Assembly (NCBI RefSeq): GCF_003697815.1
Contig: NZ_RDQG01000006.1
Coordinates: 62,001-126,000, forward strand
Length of the DNA stretch: 64,000 bases
Source: Halalkalicoccus subterraneus
GTDB taxonomy: Archaea; Halobacteriota; Halobacteria; Halobacteriales; Halalkalicoccaceae
Direction: 5' to 3'
A model generated the notes under the pieces. The model ran no database searches. It saw nothing but the letters and a program-made list of their open reading frames with translations, and was not told the DNA's origin. A program made the translations under genes and the position numbers. Of this stretch, positions 25,067 to 31,731 are shown in pieces; position 1 is the stretch's first letter; the number at the start of each line of letters is the position of its first letter.

Positions 25067-25486
25067 ATGGATCGTGATACAATGGAGACGCTAACACTCG
25101 CCGACGCAAAGGAAATGATCGACGCAGCGGAGACCGAATCCGACGAGATCGGGGTGCCGATGTGCATCGCGGTCGTCGATGCCGGTGCGAACCTTCTTGG
25201 CTTTCACCGTGTCGACGATGCCCTGCTTGCGAGCATCTCGATCGCGCAGAACAAGGCGTACAGTTCGGTGGCAATGAAGATGCCGACGGAAGACATCGGC
25301 GAGGCCGCCCAACCCGGAGAGCCTCTCTATGGGATCGAGACCACTGACGACGGTCGCATCGTCACGTTCGGCGGCGGGTTCCCGGTCGAATCCGATGGCA
25401 GCGTGATCGGCGCGATCGGCGTCAGTGGCGGCTCGCCCGACGAGGACATGACCGTCGCGCGTGCCGGCCTCGACGCGATCAACTGA
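25067..25486 (+). CDS. GlcG/HbpS heme-binding-like protein (PduO C-domain type)
   Basis: 139 residues, a single GlcG/DUF336 domain: LTLADAKEMIDAAE near the start, VPMCIAVVDAGANLLGFHR (about 29-47), and FGGGFPVESDGSVIGAIGVSG before the C-terminus (quoted as FGGGFPVESDG and IGAIGVSGG). In bacterial propanediol operons the same domain forms the C-terminal half of PduO, which binds heme. Here it stands alone, near and convergent with the dehydratase operon, so a role in B12-enzyme maintenance is plausible. ATG 25082 is an alternative start. Confidence 0.85.
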   Translation: MDRDTMETLTLADAKEMIDAAETESDEIGVPMCIAVVDAGANLLGFHRVDDALLASISIAQNKAYSSVAMKMPTEDIGEAAQPGEPLYGIETTDDGRIVTFGGGFPVESDGSVIGAIGVSGGSPDEDMTVARAGLDAIN

Positions 25487-25578
25487 ACGTTCACCCCGGC
25501 AGTGTGCTTTCGGACTCCCTATCCGGACGGTCAGCATGCGGGGAACACAGTTATTTGATCCGGAGTGAAGAGGGGTTC

Positions 25579-25869
25579 ATGAGCGAGGATGCCTCGACGG
25601 ATCCGGTGAACCCGTCGAAGGAGATGCTTCTGGAAACGATCGACCGGAACAAACGAAGAACGTGGACCGAGTACGCCGAACGGTTCCAGTTCACGCTCCG
25701 TGGCGACGAACTGGTGGAGATGACCGCGGCCGACGACGACGAGAGAACGGCTACCGTGACGCTCGCCGGAGGGCGAGCAGTGACGTGCAGTTGCTACAGT
25801 CACGCGACCGCGTTCGGGCGAACCGATTGTCGACACATGCGTGCGGTCGATGCCCACCCACGGCTCTAG
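25579..25869 (+). CDS. Small SWIM-type zinc-finger protein
   Basis: 96 residues from ATG 25579 with GGGG-type site upstream. The C-terminus carries CSCYSHATAFGRTDCRHMRA, matching the SWIM pattern C-x-C-x(n)-C-x-H. The N-terminal half is a helix followed by beta strands (FQFTLRGDELVEM). SWIM fingers bind DNA or proteins. Convergent with the dehydratase operon and 92 bases after the GlcG gene. Confidence 0.72.
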   Translation: MSEDASTDPVNPSKEMLLETIDRNKRRTWTEYAERFQFTLRGDELVEMTAADDDERTATVTLAGGRAVTCSCYSHATAFGRTDCRHMRAVDAHPRL

Positions 25870-25920
25870 TCGATCGTTGCGTGGTCGCTGATCGGAAGTG
25901 TGTGCTTCCCGTACGGATAA

Positions 25921-26106
25921 TCACTGGTCGGATTCGATGCCGTCCACGATGTCTTCGACGGACGCTTCGTGACCACAGTGCGGACAGTAAAGCACGCGTC
26001 CTTCGAGCGTCTCCGTCGAGAGGTCGCTGAGACCCCAGTACGAGTCACAGTTCCCACAGTTCATATGCGCGAGCGTCTCGATGTACGCGGTGTGTTTCTC
26101 GGTCAT
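25921..26106 (-). CDS. Zinc-ribbon protein coupled to the dehydratase operon
   Basis: 61 residues with CGNC (17-20) and CPHC (41-44), a single zinc ribbon. Its ATG lies three bases after the stop of the small reactivase gene, so it is almost surely the last cistron of the operon. No family with known function recognised. The tight coupling suggests a role linked to the dehydratase or its reactivase, but this is inference. Confidence 0.75.
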   Translation of the reverse strand: MTEKHTAYIETLAHMNCGNCDSYWGLSDLSTETLEGRVLYCPHCGHEASVEDIVDGIESDQ

Positions 26107-26109
26107 TGT

Positions 26110-26523
26110 TTACTCGCGTTCGCGGTTCTCGGAGTCCTCCTCGATCGGTTCGAGGGGCATGCGCTTTGCTAACCGCGCGGCGTTCGCCCCGACCGCTCTC
26201 GCTTGCGAGTCCGTTTCGACGCGAGCACGCTGTACCGGCTCCTCGGGTGGGAGCCGGGCGTGATGAAGCGTGTGTCTGGCGTCTCGGTCGATCCCGATCC
26301 CGATCTTCAATCCTGACTCCGAGGCCGCTCGGAACGCCAGTTCGCGGGACGGCTCGTCGGGACTGTCTTCGTCCTCTTCCACTGCGTGTGTCCGCCACGG
26401 AACGCCCTCCTCTTCGATGCCGTGTTCGATGTACTCGAGCGTGGACGGTTCCTCGCCCACATAGCGAATGTGAATTCGCGGGACGGCCTCGTCGGCTGCC
26501 GACTGTGTTCGAGTGTCGCTCAC
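26110..26523 (-). CDS. ddrB: Diol/glycerol dehydratase reactivase, small subunit
   Basis: 137 residues, similar in length to PduH/DdrB. Family features are IHIRYVGEE at the start, IEHGIEEEGVPW, and the conserved ARLPPEEPVQ and NAARLAKRMPL segments. It pairs with the ATPase subunit to free damaged cobalamin from the inactivated dehydratase. Starts 28 bases after the large reactivase gene. The C-terminus is very acidic, as in haloarchaeal proteins. Confidence 0.86.
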   Translation of the reverse strand: MSDTRTQSAADEAVPRIHIRYVGEEPSTLEYIEHGIEEEGVPWRTHAVEEDEDSPDEPSRELAFRAASESGLKIGIGIDRDARHTLHHARLPPEEPVQRARVETDSQARAVGANAARLAKRMPLEPIEEDSENRERE

Positions 26524-26551
26524 GGACGACCTCCATGCAGTGAACCTGCGT

Positions 26552-28456
26552 TCATGAGCGACTATCCCCGACGATTTCGGTCGTTCCGACGGATTTCGCG
26601 AGCCCGTCGGGGACGGTCACGTCGAACTCCGTTCGATCCCCGACGTAGGACAGACAGAGTCCGGTCGCGACTGCGTTTCGTGGCCCGGTCGTGCTGCGGA
26701 TGTTCCCGCGCCCGCAGACGATGCCGTACTCGGCGAGCGCATCCGAGATCATCTCCGGGATCTCGAAGTCCAATGCCGACCGACCGACCATCACGACAAA
26801 GGAGTGGTATCGCGTGCTCTCCGTCGGCGAGATCCGTCGGAGTGCGCGCTTGGCGTTCGTGACGAACACCTTCTCTTTGGCCTGGCGTCTGGTCCGTCGA
26901 ACCGTCTCGACGGACTCGTCGAGACCGACCGGTTCCAGTGAACCGTCGTCCTTGAGGAGGACGACCCGTCCGAACGTCTCCGAATCGACCGCCTCATCGA
27001 GAAACGTGACCGTGCCGTCCTCGTGGCGGATACTGAACAGCGTCTCCACCTTCGCGACGGGATATTTCTTGAGCCCTTCGGCGAGTTCCCGATCGACCCC
27101 GAGCTCCGAGGCGATCAGCATCGTCACCATATCGCCCGCCCCGGCCAGATGGGTCGACGTGATCTCGTTCGTCTCGTTGATGTACGCCGCATCGGTCGAG
27201 CCCCCGCCCATATCCAGAATGGCAAAGGGGACGTCCGTTCCCGGCGTCGTGAGCGACCCCAGGATCGCCATGTTCGCCTCGATACCCTGAATGGTGACCG
27301 CCGTTTCCAACCGGTCTTCGACCTCGTCGGCGATCTGTTGCATGGGAAGCTCGCTCGTTTTGACCATCGCCGCCAGCCCAACGGCGGTCTCCATGCTGTG
27401 TTCGCTCGCGACCGAACCCTCGACTTTCTGTGGGACGAGCGTATCGACCGCCATGATGTCCCGAATGTTGATCTCCGAGAGTTCCTGGCCGGTCACCTCA
27501 CCCATCTGTTCGCGCGCCCGGCTCAGCATCCCGCCGATGTTCGAGCCCCGCTCGCCCCTGATGTCCGCGATCGGCCAGTGTTCCTCGACGTGGGCCATGA
27601 TCTCGTCGGCACCCTGATCGATATCAATCGACACCGAATTGCCTCCTTCACCGATGACGGTCAGCGAGCCTGCCGGGATCGTCCGCTCTTCGACGTCACC
27701 AGCCGGTGTTTTGATGACGACCGCGGATTTGTTCCCGACGAGGGCCCGCGAGACGGGGATGATCTTCTGGGTTTCCTCGGATGAGAGCTCGAACAGCGTC
27801 GCAAGACCGTAGGGGTTCGAGAGCTGGTCGATCGTCTGTCCCGAGCCGCCCGTCGCGACCTCGACGGCGGCCGGTTGCCCGCGGGGGATCTCCTCGATCT
27901 TGCCGACTTCATCGACGATGGGGATCTCCCGGTCAATGCGGTTGTTGATCAGGACCGCGTCGTCCTTCTGGACGATCGCTCCCTGAATGTCGATCCCCTG
28001 CTCGACCCACTCGTTGATCGTCCCTGCGGCGTCCGCGAAGTCGACTGTCGCCGGCACGACGACGATGACCGACGGTTCGTCCGTGAGTGTGTCGCGATCC
28101 GTGGTTATCTCCACGACCGTCCCGGTTCCGAGCCCGGCTCCGCCCGGTGTCGATGGATCGTGGCCGATCATCGTCGATTCCGTGATCACGGTCTCGGTAA
28201 TCGTCTCCATCGCGACGTCCCCGATAACCGGTGCGGCTTCGTTGAGGAGGATCCGGTCGATCTCGTCGACCGAAATGCCTGCCGTCTCGGCCGCCCGTTC
28301 GAGGGCATTTACGACCCCCGGAACGTTCTTTACGGTCCCTTTCAGCCCGGTTGTTCGAAAGAGGCTGGTCGCGACGAACTCGTAGCCGTCGTTGTTCCGA
28401 ACCAGTGCGACCTCGGTGCTCGAATTGCCAATATCTACGCCTGCGATATACTCCAT
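26552..28456 (-). CDS. ddrA: Diol/glycerol dehydratase reactivase, large subunit
   Basis: 634 residues, near the 610 of bacterial DdrA/PduG. An actin-like ATPase: AGVDIGNSSTEVAL at 5-18 (phosphate 1), ILDMGGGSTDAAYI near 415 (phosphate 2), and a swivel domain between. TMIGHDPSTPGG and RGNIRSTTGPRNAVATG are family-specific. Uses ATP to exchange bound cyanocobalamin-like forms for intact adenosylcobalamin. Follows the small dehydratase gene by 80 bases. Confidence 0.95.
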   Translation of the reverse strand: MEYIAGVDIGNSSTEVALVRNNDGYEFVATSLFRTTGLKGTVKNVPGVVNALERAAETAGISVDEIDRILLNEAAPVIGDVAMETITETVITESTMIGHDPSTPGGAGLGTGTVVEITTDRDTLTDEPSVIVVVPATVDFADAAGTINEWVEQGIDIQGAIVQKDDAVLINNRIDREIPIVDEVGKIEEIPRGQPAAVEVATGGSGQTIDQLSNPYGLATLFELSSEETQKIIPVSRALVGNKSAVVIKTPAGDVEERTIPAGSLTVIGEGGNSVSIDIDQGADEIMAHVEEHWPIADIRGERGSNIGGMLSRAREQMGEVTGQELSEINIRDIMAVDTLVPQKVEGSVASEHSMETAVGLAAMVKTSELPMQQIADEVEDRLETAVTIQGIEANMAILGSLTTPGTDVPFAILDMGGGSTDAAYINETNEITSTHLAGAGDMVTMLIASELGVDRELAEGLKKYPVAKVETLFSIRHEDGTVTFLDEAVDSETFGRVVLLKDDGSLEPVGLDESVETVRRTRRQAKEKVFVTNAKRALRRISPTESTRYHSFVVMVGRSALDFEIPEMISDALAEYGIVCGRGNIRSTTGPRNAVATGLCLSYVGDRTEFDVTVPDGLAKSVGTTEIVGDSRS

Positions 28457-28536
28457 GTTCTCTCTGATTAGGTCCCGGTCGTGCTCCGCCCTGATAATTC
28501 GTTCCCGTCCCTGTGCGCCGTCGATCGCGGTCGGGT

Positions 28537-28941
28537 TCAGACGACGCCGCGCTTTTCGTACACCTCGATCGCCTCTCGAACCAGCGCGGCGTTGATCTGG
28601 GCGTCGTACTCGGTTTCGAGTTCGTCGGCCATCCCTTCGAGCGTCTCCTTGTCCGCCCCACTGGGTCGCAGTGCGTTGTAGATCTCGAGAATCCGCTCGT
28701 CGGGAATCGCCGTCAGCTCGGCCGCTCGGCGGAAGTTTTCCGCGAGCTGTGGCCGTCCTTCCTGTTCGGCTACTTGTGCTTGCTTTTCGAGGGTGTCCGG
28801 TGAAATCGCGATGTCGTCGCCGTCGATATCGCCGTCGACGACCGCATCGAGCGTGATCTCCGAAAGCGCCGTTCCGTTCGGCGTTTCGACCTGTTCCGGG
28901 TTGTCGGACAGCGGGTATTCGATCTCGTCTGAGTTGCTCAT
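28537..28941 (-). CDS. pduE: Diol/glycerol dehydratase, small subunit
   Basis: 134 residues. RAAELTAIPDERILEIYNAL is the family core, with ISPDTLEKQA before and REAIEVYEKRG after. Compared with about 173 residues for Klebsiella/Salmonella PduE, the first 30 or so are missing: it begins directly at the YPL...NPEQ segment. That missing extension is the part that affects solubility and microcompartment packing in bacteria. Nine bases after the medium subunit. Confidence 0.93.
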   Translation of the reverse strand: MSNSDEIEYPLSDNPEQVETPNGTALSEITLDAVVDGDIDGDDIAISPDTLEKQAQVAEQEGRPQLAENFRRAAELTAIPDERILEIYNALRPSGADKETLEGMADELETEYDAQINAALVREAIEVYEKRGVV

Positions 28942-28950
28942 TGGTGGTAG

Positions 28951-29523
28951 TTAGTTGAAGTCGACGTCTATTTCGATCTGGCCGCGCTCCTCATCGAGAC
29001 ACTGCGTCTCTTTGATGTGCCAGATCGCGGCCATCGCCTGGAACTTCGGTCGCGTCATCGGGTCGTTTTCGACTGTTACCGGTGCGGGGCTCTCCCCTTT
29101 CGCGTACCGGGCGGCGTTTCGCCCGATCGCACGGAACGTTTCGGGGACCAGTAGCGGCCCTTGGGGAAACAGCTCCAGGTTGTCGAGCTGCAACAGATCC
29201 TCCTGGTGGATGAGCGTGGTCCCTCTCGATTGTATCGCAATACTGATTCCCGACCCGCTGAGATTCGAGGAGACGAGTCCCATCCGCCCCAGATCGACGG
29301 TGTCGTAGACCCGGACGACGCGCATCGAGGCGCCTTCCTCTTCGATCCCGGCCATCACTTCGCGAATGATCTCCGCGTGGGAGACGCCCGAAAGCGTTTC
29401 CGTACTGATCTCGCCAAAGCCCGGGCTCAGGGCGATGACGACCTCGTCGGGGGCCGTCCCCTTCTCGGCCGGGCCGGTGTCCTCGAATGTGACCGTTCGT
29501 TCTCGCTGTGTCGCTTGACTCAT
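28951..29523 (-). CDS. pduD: Diol/glycerol dehydratase, medium subunit
   Basis: 190 residues against about 224 for PduD. Core features: DEVVIALSPGFGE, IREVMAGIEEEG, LSGSGISIAIQSRGTTLIHQ, LELFPQGPLL and IGRNAARYAKGESP, which build the cobalamin-binding face. The amphipathic N-terminal encapsulation helix of PduD (a KLLRQIIEDVLSEM-type sequence) is absent; residues 1-18 are polar. Separated by 90 bases from the large subunit. Confidence 0.94.
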   Translation of the reverse strand: MSQATQRERTVTFEDTGPAEKGTAPDEVVIALSPGFGEISTETLSGVSHAEIIREVMAGIEEEGASMRVVRVYDTVDLGRMGLVSSNLSGSGISIAIQSRGTTLIHQEDLLQLDNLELFPQGPLLVPETFRAIGRNAARYAKGESPAPVTVENDPMTRPKFQAMAAIWHIKETQCLDEERGQIEIDVDFN

Positions 29524-29613
29524 GGTATTGACTGTCCTCCGTTTCGTCCTCGCGCTCGTTCGTGCTCGGCTACCGGTTCCCGACGCTCGCCGTGGAGAGT
29601 GCTAGGAGCCATG

Positions 29614-31335
29614 TTAGACGTCCTTTGGATCGACGGCGTGTCGGTAGTTCTTGATCTCCTCCCAGCGCTCCTCGCTCATCCGGTAGCCGGTTCCGGGGCC
29701 CTCGTAGTCGTTCGGGTTATTCACCGCGCTCACGACGTTGAACTCCTCGTCGAGGATCGCCGACGTATGGAGGTAATCGCCAGAGACGCGCGATTTGAGC
29801 ACGCCGAGAATGTTCTCCGCGATCTCCTCGAACCCGCGCTCGACCAGGATGGTGACGATATCGGCGCCGGTGACTTCGCGCTCCATCATCTCCTGTGCGG
29901 CGTCGATGTCCTGTGCCTGGTTCCGATCCGGCATGTCGTCGCTGCCGTCGGCGTACGTCGCAGCCTCGACCTCCTCGTCGGTGATCGGCGGGAAGCCCAG
30001 TTCCTCGAAGACCGCCTGGAGGGCTTTGACCGCCCGGTTGCGATACTTGATGACCTCCTCCTCTTCGACGTCTTTGGTCCCGCCGTCGACCTTGAAGTCC
30101 CGTTGTATGAGGTTGTAGTCGTCGAAATCCGACGAATCGAACGTCGAGCCGGCGAACATGTCGTCGTAGTTCGGTACGGCGCTGTACCCCGAGAAGATGA
30201 AGTCGGTCCCGGGGAACATCTGGGGGATCATGTGGGCCGTCCGGCGCGTCTCCGAGTGCGTAAACGTCTGGTCGTTCCCGGAGGCCATCTCCAAGTCGAC
30301 CATCCCAGCGATGAGGTTCTCCGCGAGGATACACCGCAGCCCGGAGGGAACCGCCGCCGGGATCGCGACGGTGCTGATCGATCCGTTCTGGAGCCCTTGG
30401 ACGCCACAGCCCTTCGTCACCAGCACGCATTTCGTCTCCAGATACAGCATGGATTTGCCCTCCGCTTGGCCCATGTTCACCTCGGAGCCCGATCCCGAGG
30501 TGAATCGCATCTTCACCCCTCGCGAGGCGTAGCCGGAGGCGAGAAACGCCTTCGAGTACGGGGTGTCGTCGCCGTCTTTGAACACGTCCTCGGTGCCGTA
30601 CACGGAGACCGTCTCGGCGTAACTGGTCATCCCGCGCATTCCCAGTTCGAGTTCGGTCGCCTCCTCAACGGCACACTGCGTCAGAACGCCGCCCCTGCCA
30701 CATTGGGTCCCGATCAACAGCGAGAGCGCGTTGAACGGTGCGATGCGTGTGATCCCGACCGTCGTCTCGGCTTCGTCGAATCCCCGAAGGGCGGATTCGG
30801 CCGCATCGGCCACCAGCTGTGCGGGATGATCCTTTACGCTCGTGACGTGACACTGGTTTCCAGGGTTTTTGCGAGTGCGCACCTTCTGGAGCGCCATCAT
30901 CATCTCCACCGTGTTCATCTGGTTGACGACCTCGGTGAGCTTCGCCGGCGTCATCCCGGTCGCGAGCCGCTTGATCTCCTCGCGCGGGACGTTGATGTCC
31001 GCAAGCATATGTGCGAACTCCACCGAGTCGAGCTCGAGTGCCTCGTCGGCTACCTCCGGATCGATCGCGTAGTCCGCGATGAACTGGTCGACGAAATCGA
31101 ACTCTTCGCGCTCGATGCCGTCCATCTCGACGATCGTTCCGTCCTCAACCGTTATCGAGGGATCCGGATCGTCAGGAGATTCCATCGCGACGAACCCGAC
31201 CTCCGGCCACTCCTCGACGATTCCGTCTTTGTTGACGGGTCGGTTATCGAGGGTCTCGAACCGCTTGGACCGCTTCCGTTCGACATTGTCGGTCGCTTGC
31301 GACGCGTCCTCGGAGTTTGGTTCCTTGTTAGCCAT
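29614..31335 (-). CDS. pduC: Adenosylcobalamin-dependent diol/glycerol dehydratase, large subunit
   Basis: 573 residues, 554 in Klebsiella PduC. Nearly every core block is kept: QCHVTSVKDHP with His163 (PduC His143), RGFDEAETT with Glu190 (PduC Glu170), GRGGVLTQCAVEEATELELG, SRGVKMRFTSGSGSEVNMG, SNDQ-type ASGNDQTFTHSE, and PGTDFIFSGYSAVPNYD. A TIM barrel that turns 1,2-propanediol to propanal or glycerol to 3-hydroxypropanal. First gene of the operon. Whether glycerol, abundant in brines, or propanediol is the true substrate cannot be read from the sequence. Confidence 0.97.
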   Translation of the reverse strand: MANKEPNSEDASQATDNVERKRSKRFETLDNRPVNKDGIVEEWPEVGFVAMESPDDPDPSITVEDGTIVEMDGIEREEFDFVDQFIADYAIDPEVADEALELDSVEFAHMLADINVPREEIKRLATGMTPAKLTEVVNQMNTVEMMMALQKVRTRKNPGNQCHVTSVKDHPAQLVADAAESALRGFDEAETTVGITRIAPFNALSLLIGTQCGRGGVLTQCAVEEATELELGMRGMTSYAETVSVYGTEDVFKDGDDTPYSKAFLASGYASRGVKMRFTSGSGSEVNMGQAEGKSMLYLETKCVLVTKGCGVQGLQNGSISTVAIPAAVPSGLRCILAENLIAGMVDLEMASGNDQTFTHSETRRTAHMIPQMFPGTDFIFSGYSAVPNYDDMFAGSTFDSSDFDDYNLIQRDFKVDGGTKDVEEEEVIKYRNRAVKALQAVFEELGFPPITDEEVEAATYADGSDDMPDRNQAQDIDAAQEMMEREVTGADIVTILVERGFEEIAENILGVLKSRVSGDYLHTSAILDEEFNVVSAVNNPNDYEGPGTGYRMSEERWEEIKNYRHAVDPKDV

Positions 31336-31373
31336 TACCGATTCACTGCTTGGCGTCCACCGTAATAGGTTTA

Positions 31374-31379
31374 CTTATA
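31374..31379 (-). promoter_or_regulatory. TATA box of the dehydratase operon
   Basis: On the minus strand GAATATAAGTAAACC places TATAAG about 40 bases before ATG 31335, predicting transcription start near 31352 and a leader of about 16 bases. The surrounding DNA is markedly A+T-rich relative to the gene. Confidence 0.6.
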
Positions 31380-31388
31380 TTCAAAATT

Positions 31389-31409
31389 ATAGGCGATGAT
31401 ACTGCCTAT
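31389..31409. promoter_or_regulatory. Inverted repeat upstream of the dehydratase TATA box
   Basis: ATAGGC-(9 bases)-GCCTAT, a perfect six-base inverted repeat ten bases upstream of the TATA box. The position suits an activator site. No regulator gene for it was recognised in the window. Confidence 0.4.
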
Positions 31410-31731
31410 CCAACCAACAAATTTGGCTGCTAGACGCTAGAAACACACATTTGGTTGCAGTAGGACAACTGTACTTTCATCGGTTCGCTGAAAACATTAC
31501 CTCACTACTATCTCAGTTTATCCGTACGGGCACGCTCCCTCTGTGGCCGATGACTCCCCTGTGGCTCGTGGGTTCTACAAACCGAATCGGTCACTACTAA
31601 CGATTCTGGCTCTGGGACTCCGTTTTCATCCTTCACTCCACTTGATCGACCGACCCCTCGATCGGATCGTCCGTTATCCGTGTCGGTTCACTTCGGACTA
31701 CTCGACTCGGTGACGGACTGATGACAGTCGT
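31410..31731. other. Intergenic region between two minus-strand genes
   Basis: About 320 bases with no supported gene. It lies between the dehydratase promoter and the stop of the CBS-domain gene, which is transcribed toward it. No repeat or RNA signature seen. Confidence 0.4.

Follow-up and report, generated by a model that had tools for sequence, protein, structure and literature searches.

The question raised by the locus described here is whether an adenosylcobalamin-dependent diol/glycerol dehydratase works in a haloarchaeon without a microcompartment shell around it. The locus lies in 64,000 nucleotides of Halalkalicoccus subterraneus DNA (contig NZ_RDQG01000006.1, positions 62,001 to 126,000, assembly GCF_003697815.1), referred to below as the window, and codes for the dehydratase PduCDE and the ATP-driven reactivase PduGH. 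We predict, with a probability of about 0.85, that both are functional and work unenclosed in the cytosol of the haloarchaeon. Enzymes of this class are well known, and their presence in Halalkalicoccus was published in 2016, when a complete dha regulon was reported in Halalkalicoccus jeotgali and transfer from bacteria was proposed (PMC4777399). RefSeq already names the genes in that species. What is new is the comparative test linking subunit extension with shell genes, the occurrence of a B12 diol dehydratase without a shell in no fewer than eight genera of haloarchaea, and a pair of small zinc proteins, previously undescribed and closely tied to the dehydratase, which are the part most worth following.

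The dehydratase and reactivase genes

A first-pass annotation of the window, made by reading the sequence, had reported a complete set of dehydratase and reactivase genes. All five are present and intact where it had placed them, with full-length family matches. The large subunit gene pduC (dhaB1-type; 29614..31335, minus strand; 573 residues) is the only one of its kind in the source genome; its product matches Pfam Dehydratase_LU (PF02286) with 979 bits over 552/552 positions and exceeds the cut-off of NCBIfam NF011979. The medium subunit gene pduD (dhaB2-type; 28951..29523, minus strand; 190 residues) and the small subunit gene pduE (dhaB3-type; 28537..28941, minus strand; 134 residues) code for proteins that score above the cut-offs of NF011616 and NF011975, respectively, so that the three subunits all exceed the curated cut-offs of PduCDE/DhaBCE family models. 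The large (ATPase) subunit of the reactivase, of the PduG/DhaF type, is coded by pduG (26552..28456, minus strand; 634 residues; TIGR04491, 880 bits for a cut-off of 400; PF08841 and PF18427). It is adjoined by pduH (26110..26523, minus strand; 137 residues; PF02288, 87.6 bits), which codes for the small PduH/DhaG subunit, and the pair stays together in relatives.

The best solved relative of the window PduC is the Klebsiella glycerol dehydratase 1iwp (838 bits, near end-to-end alignment). Alignment to the Klebsiella oxytoca diol dehydratase 1dio (792 bits) pairs residue 22 of the query with residue 2 of the chain, an offset of 20. His163 and Glu190, singled out earlier as intact key residues, are correctly placed in this alignment and correspond to what we take to be the catalytic His143 and Glu170 of 1dio. 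The protein also has Gln161, Glu241, Gln316, Ser321, Asp355, Gln356 and Ser382, presumably with the catalytic and substrate- or K+-binding roles of their counterparts in 1dio and 1iwp. The nine active-site positions are all (9/9) invariant in 10 haloarchaeal PduC copies.

Because of this family membership and these conserved residues, radical dehydration and ATP-dependent reactivation are the expected activities. PduCDE would dehydrate 1,2-propanediol or glycerol, both of them 1,2-diols, through a radical mechanism to propionaldehyde or 3-hydroxypropionaldehyde (3-HPA), and PduGH would swap out damaged cobalamin. Fresh coenzyme would be supplied by a PduO-type adenosyltransferase; the whole-genome search proposed in the first-pass annotation found one such gene (195.6 bits) on another contig. 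In three other haloarchaeal genomes an adenosyltransferase gene lies inside the locus. The acidic composition of the enzyme makes its adaptation to salt plausible.

In the region upstream of pduC (31340-31480, minus strand) a TATA-like TGAATATAA element and, farther upstream, a AAAGTnnnnTTG...AAA block are partly conserved in four Halalkalicoccus genomes. They are a possible promoter and operator.

Subunit extensions and shell genes

The medium and small subunits had been described as lacking the N-terminal extensions of shell-associated bacterial forms, and alignment with bacterial and haloarchaeal sequences bears this out. PduD aligns from residue 3 with chain B of 1iwp (194 residues) and the best solved relative of PduE is chain G of the same structure (141 residues); the start points of both proteins match those of these glycerol dehydratase chains. 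The significance of this feature was assessed in the loci of the 80 best relatives from a genome collection, using the 71 bacterial loci that have a small subunit. Sequences of Synergistota and Desulfatibacillum, grouped with H. jeotgali in PMC4777399, lie outside the 80 loci kept. An extension was defined as at least 15 residues, and genes for the shell-protein domain BMC were counted within about 10 kb of the locus, with BMC and EutN query sequences confirmed by Pfam. BMC genes were found near all bacterial loci with an extended small subunit (45/45) and were absent from 25 of the 26 in which the extension is missing. The sole bacterial locus with BMC genes and an apparently short small subunit (L089, from a Candidatus Epulonipiscium metagenome-assembled genome) has an extended medium subunit, so its start call or assembly may be wrong.

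No shell genes were found in the 17 haloarchaeal loci, which represent fewer than 17 distinct genomes since L028, L034 and L035 repeat genomes counted under other identifiers. PduD and PduE are short in haloarchaea. A few loci show apparent extensions, and L014 gives a figure of 611 residues; these probably reflect in-frame start codons lying farther upstream, as taken up in the longest open reading frame (ORF). The genome of H. subterraneus (3.6 Mb, 95% complete) has no match to BMC (PF00936) even at E<=1, and thus the shell genes elsewhere in the genome that would have contradicted a free enzyme were not found. This absence is strong but not absolute because the assembly is a draft in 101 contigs. 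BMC genes above the cut-off were likewise lacking in the 11 dehydratase-positive haloarchaeal genomes, several of which are in few contigs. Within the window, no ORF resembles PduP or DhaT, and the proteins scanned, which cover part of the window ORFs, include no member of the BMC, aldehyde dehydrogenase or alcohol dehydrogenase families, in agreement with the first reading of the sequence.

Because extension and shell genes go together in bacterial loci, we infer that the haloarchaeal enzyme is free in the cytosol, as had been suggested. What does not hold is the accompanying view that a shell-free state sets it apart from its homologues: judged from the alignments, short subunits are normal for the bacterial dha (glycerol dehydratase) type, which is equally shell-free, and no special mark of archaea.

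Small proteins encoded at the locus

Two genes just outside the range of the first-pass annotation (25921-31335) had been overlooked, and a third, inside it, had gone unmentioned. The first (25067..25486, plus strand; conserved start probably 25082) codes for a stand-alone HbpS-like/DUF336 protein (PF03928, 148.6 bits), the counterpart of OrfY and of the PduO carboxyl-terminal domain, which is found at most haloarchaeal loci. Its best solved relatives are 2a2l, named OrfY in PMC8153426, EfgA (6bws) and PduO-C (5cx7). EfgA is a formaldehyde sensor whose authors suggest an overlap with PduO via aldehyde (PMC8153426), and PduO-C binds haem and must be present for 1,2-propanediol to be used effectively (PMC4923194). 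In a whole-length alignment K57, S114 and D121 of EfgA correspond to K63, S120 and D127 of the window protein, invariant in 11 haloarchaeal copies. Since the family as a whole is reported to have largely conserved these three residues, which are implicated in EfgA (PMC8153426), their presence is no proof of aldehyde sensing. A putative role of the DUF336 protein in aldehyde or cobalamin handling is reasonable.

The second gene (25504..25869, plus strand) has a probable start at 25579, giving a protein of 96 residues with the motif CxCx11CxH. This motif meets the pattern CxCx(n)CxH, which we take to be the SWIM zinc-binding signature, and C95, C97, C109, H111 and M26 are invariant in the alignment of the SWIM-like family (A2). 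The window protein matches no Pfam family at E<=1 and no NCBIfam model. The third gene, an ORF on the minus strand (25921..26106), codes for a zinc-ribbon protein of 61 residues (CxxC...CPHCG; alignment A3), a related copy of which, in locus L023, matches DUF7836 above the cut-off.

Both proteins closely follow the dehydratase. Strong matches to the SWIM-like protein (E<1e-37) occur in 8/11 positive genomes, as a single copy at the locus in each, and in 0/383 negative genomes, where no match is better than 2e-11 and the weaker ones look like generic SWIM-type proteins. The locus of genome G342 has only a fragment of the gene. The zinc-ribbon gene is found in 6/11 positive and 0/383 negative genomes. 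Fisher tests of co-occurrence with the dehydratase give 1e-14 for the SWIM-like and 9e-11 for the zinc-ribbon protein, shared ancestry being ignored. Note that the query alignments were built from positive loci, which limits their sensitivity to distant forms; with them, neither protein was found in the bacterial relatives sampled. The structure models are of low confidence, the mean predicted local distance difference test (pLDDT) score being 60.5 for the SWIM-like and 65.7 for the zinc-ribbon protein. In H. jeotgali the SWIM-like gene (plasmid NC_014298.1, 107639-107908) has no annotation listed in the PLSDB gene table, which is incomplete.

Brz, a small zinc-finger protein of haloarchaea, regulates its neighbour gene (PMC2253796), and because of this precedent local regulation is the first guess. 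As haloarchaeal additions to the locus, the two proteins most likely act as local regulators or assembly factors.

Phylogenetic position, downstream enzymes and substrate

The bacterial loci fall into two types. Those with a shell mostly code for PduP (40/46) and for a fused PduO, and those without a shell all code for DhaT (25/25), together with a stand-alone HbpS-like protein. A search at the haloarchaeal loci found neither PduP nor DhaT in any of them. A four-gene tree groups the haloarchaea in a single clade (support 100) and places the bacterial loci without a shell in a second one (99), the two standing apart and the haloarchaeal clade lying on the side of the shell-type pdu loci. Their union was rejected in the four-gene tree under LG+G4 (approximately unbiased test, p-AU 3e-5) and under a mixture model with a reduced set (p-AU 1e-11); a tree of two genes that included a very distant outgroup did not reject it (p 0.26). 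The only outgroup reached was Shinella (47% identity), whose branch is 4.5 changes per site long; the part of its sequence that was read has no shell gene annotated. H. jeotgali was likewise found apart from the Klebsiella/Clostridium group in PMC4777399. There are thus likely two separate shell-free lineages, one haloarchaeal and one bacterial, for which shell loss and primitive absence are both possible.

These results bear on whether the locus is the glycerol dehydratase of a dha regulon, moved whole into haloarchaea and making 1,3-propanediol as an electron sink. Among solved structures, the best match to both the large and the small subunit is the Klebsiella glycerol dehydratase; the short subunits, the stand-alone OrfY-like protein and the stand-alone adenosyltransferase fit the dha layout; and homologues of dhaT and dhaDKLM are assigned to H. 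jeotgali in PMC4777399. The genome also has three matches to iron-containing alcohol dehydrogenases (Fe-ADH; PF00465). However, a tie between Fe-ADH and the cassette was rejected, such genes being present also in dehydratase-negative relatives, and the uniform lack of DhaT at the haloarchaeal loci and the four-gene trees speak against a regulon transferred intact, which makes this explanation doubtful.

A use of 1,2-propanediol, formed for example from deoxysugars and converted through propionaldehyde to propionate or propionyl-CoA for central metabolism, comes somewhat short of even odds. The active-site residues checked do not discriminate glycerol from 1,2-propanediol. A full glycerol kinase is encoded in 14/14 genomes examined, whether or not they have the dehydratase, and glycerol use is on that ground probably independent of the cassette, so that a second glycerol route would be unneeded. 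The position of the haloarchaeal clade near shell-type loci, most of which have PduP, and the general aldehyde dehydrogenases of the genome point the same way. Against the propanediol route stand the lack of PduP at the locus and of a close homologue in the genome, and no propanediol-forming gene was identified at the locus.

Fe-ADH and aldehyde dehydrogenase genes lie side by side and divergent at G000:C78:189528-191555, and a similar pair is present in genome G227 (C1:916074-918131); none is listed for G060 or G217. Such pairs might encode partners that act on the product of the dehydratase.

Several points weigh against a functional free dehydratase. The window locus has no dedicated downstream enzyme. 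The search for such enzymes proposed in the first-pass annotation did find Fe-ADH and aldehyde dehydrogenases in the genome, but the best matches to PduP have 24-28% identity, no more than ordinary aldehyde dehydrogenases would show. As for oxygen, H. jeotgali is listed as an aerobe and the known producers of 1,3-propanediol are anaerobic or facultative (PMC4777399). The haem ligand His18 of PduO-C (PMC4923194) corresponds to Lys15 in the window HbpS-like protein, so that this mode of haem binding is not kept. A functional, shell-free PduCDE with its reactivase nevertheless is our preferred reading: because the locus is without DhaT and PduP, the reductive and oxidative routes would be left to general enzymes encoded elsewhere, in place of a dedicated PduP enclosed in a shell.

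Distribution and mobility

The large subunit gene is found in 11/394 genomes of the class, in 7/86 genera and in only part of the Halalkalicoccus members; in a phylum-wide draw it occurs in 2/394 genomes, both Halalkalicoccus. The nearest named relative is Halalkalicoccus paucihalophilus, whose PduC is 95% identical to that of the window. When four Halalkalicoccus genomes are compared, similarity at the DNA level sets in close to one edge of the cassette and stops close to the other (window 25074-31384), and in H. jeotgali and Halomarina the cassette is on a plasmid. From one haloarchaeal genus to another the genes change order but the set is retained: pduCDE and pduGH, with the HbpS-like gene in most and often the SWIM-like and zinc-ribbon genes. 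The patchiness, the edge-limited similarity and the plasmids suggest that the cassette is a mobile unit among haloarchaea. It was probably first acquired from bacteria, the natural reading because bacterial large subunits, the best of which are 66-70% identical to the window PduC, reach 70% identity.

The window on either side (1-24000 and 33400-63000) is rich in surface-polysaccharide genes, coding for glycosyltransferases, Wzy_C-type proteins, sulfatases, a flippase-like protein and a sugar-nucleotide epimerase.

The patchy distribution, the plasmid location in two species, the unrelated flanks and the missing dedicated downstream enzyme would also suit a recently acquired passenger without a physiological role. 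This is very improbable, as the five dehydratase and reactivase genes are all intact and the catalytic residues invariant across 8 haloarchaeal genera, and the accessory proteins are kept while gene order is shuffled. As a functional unit, the haloarchaeal cassette makes it testable how cells bear 3-HPA or propionaldehyde without a shell, and it possibly offers salt-tolerant dehydratases for the production of 3-HPA or 1,3-propanediol.

Comparison with known systems

The closest known system is the locus of H. jeotgali B3 on the 406-kb plasmid NC_014298 (HACJB3_RS15280 to RS15265, RS18910). It has the five genes in identical order, a PduC that is 93% identical, and an adjacent HbpS-like gene, with the SWIM-like gene also present; it differs in its flanks and in lacking the zinc-ribbon gene. 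The bacterial dha-type glycerol dehydratase of Klebsiella, Citrobacter and Clostridium is encoded with reactivase, adenosyltransferase, OrfY and DhaT. The haloarchaeal locus is like it in the short subunits, the absence of a shell and the stand-alone OrfY-like DUF336 protein, and unlike it in having no DhaT, which every bacterial free locus sampled has, and in its separate clade in four-gene trees. With the dehydratase of the bacterial Pdu microcompartment it has in common the catalytic subunits, the large one about 65-70% identical, and the reactivase, whereas the N-terminal extensions, BMC genes, mostly fused PduO and PduP of those loci are all absent. Beside these two bacterial types the haloarchaeal locus might represent a third architecture, a shell-free mobile cassette in which the haloarchaea-specific SWIM-like and zinc-ribbon proteins would be, with the DUF336 protein, dedicated partners that aid aldehyde tolerance or control where there is neither a shell nor an aldehyde enzyme devoted to the task; this is put forward tentatively, as a proposal with the odds rather against it.

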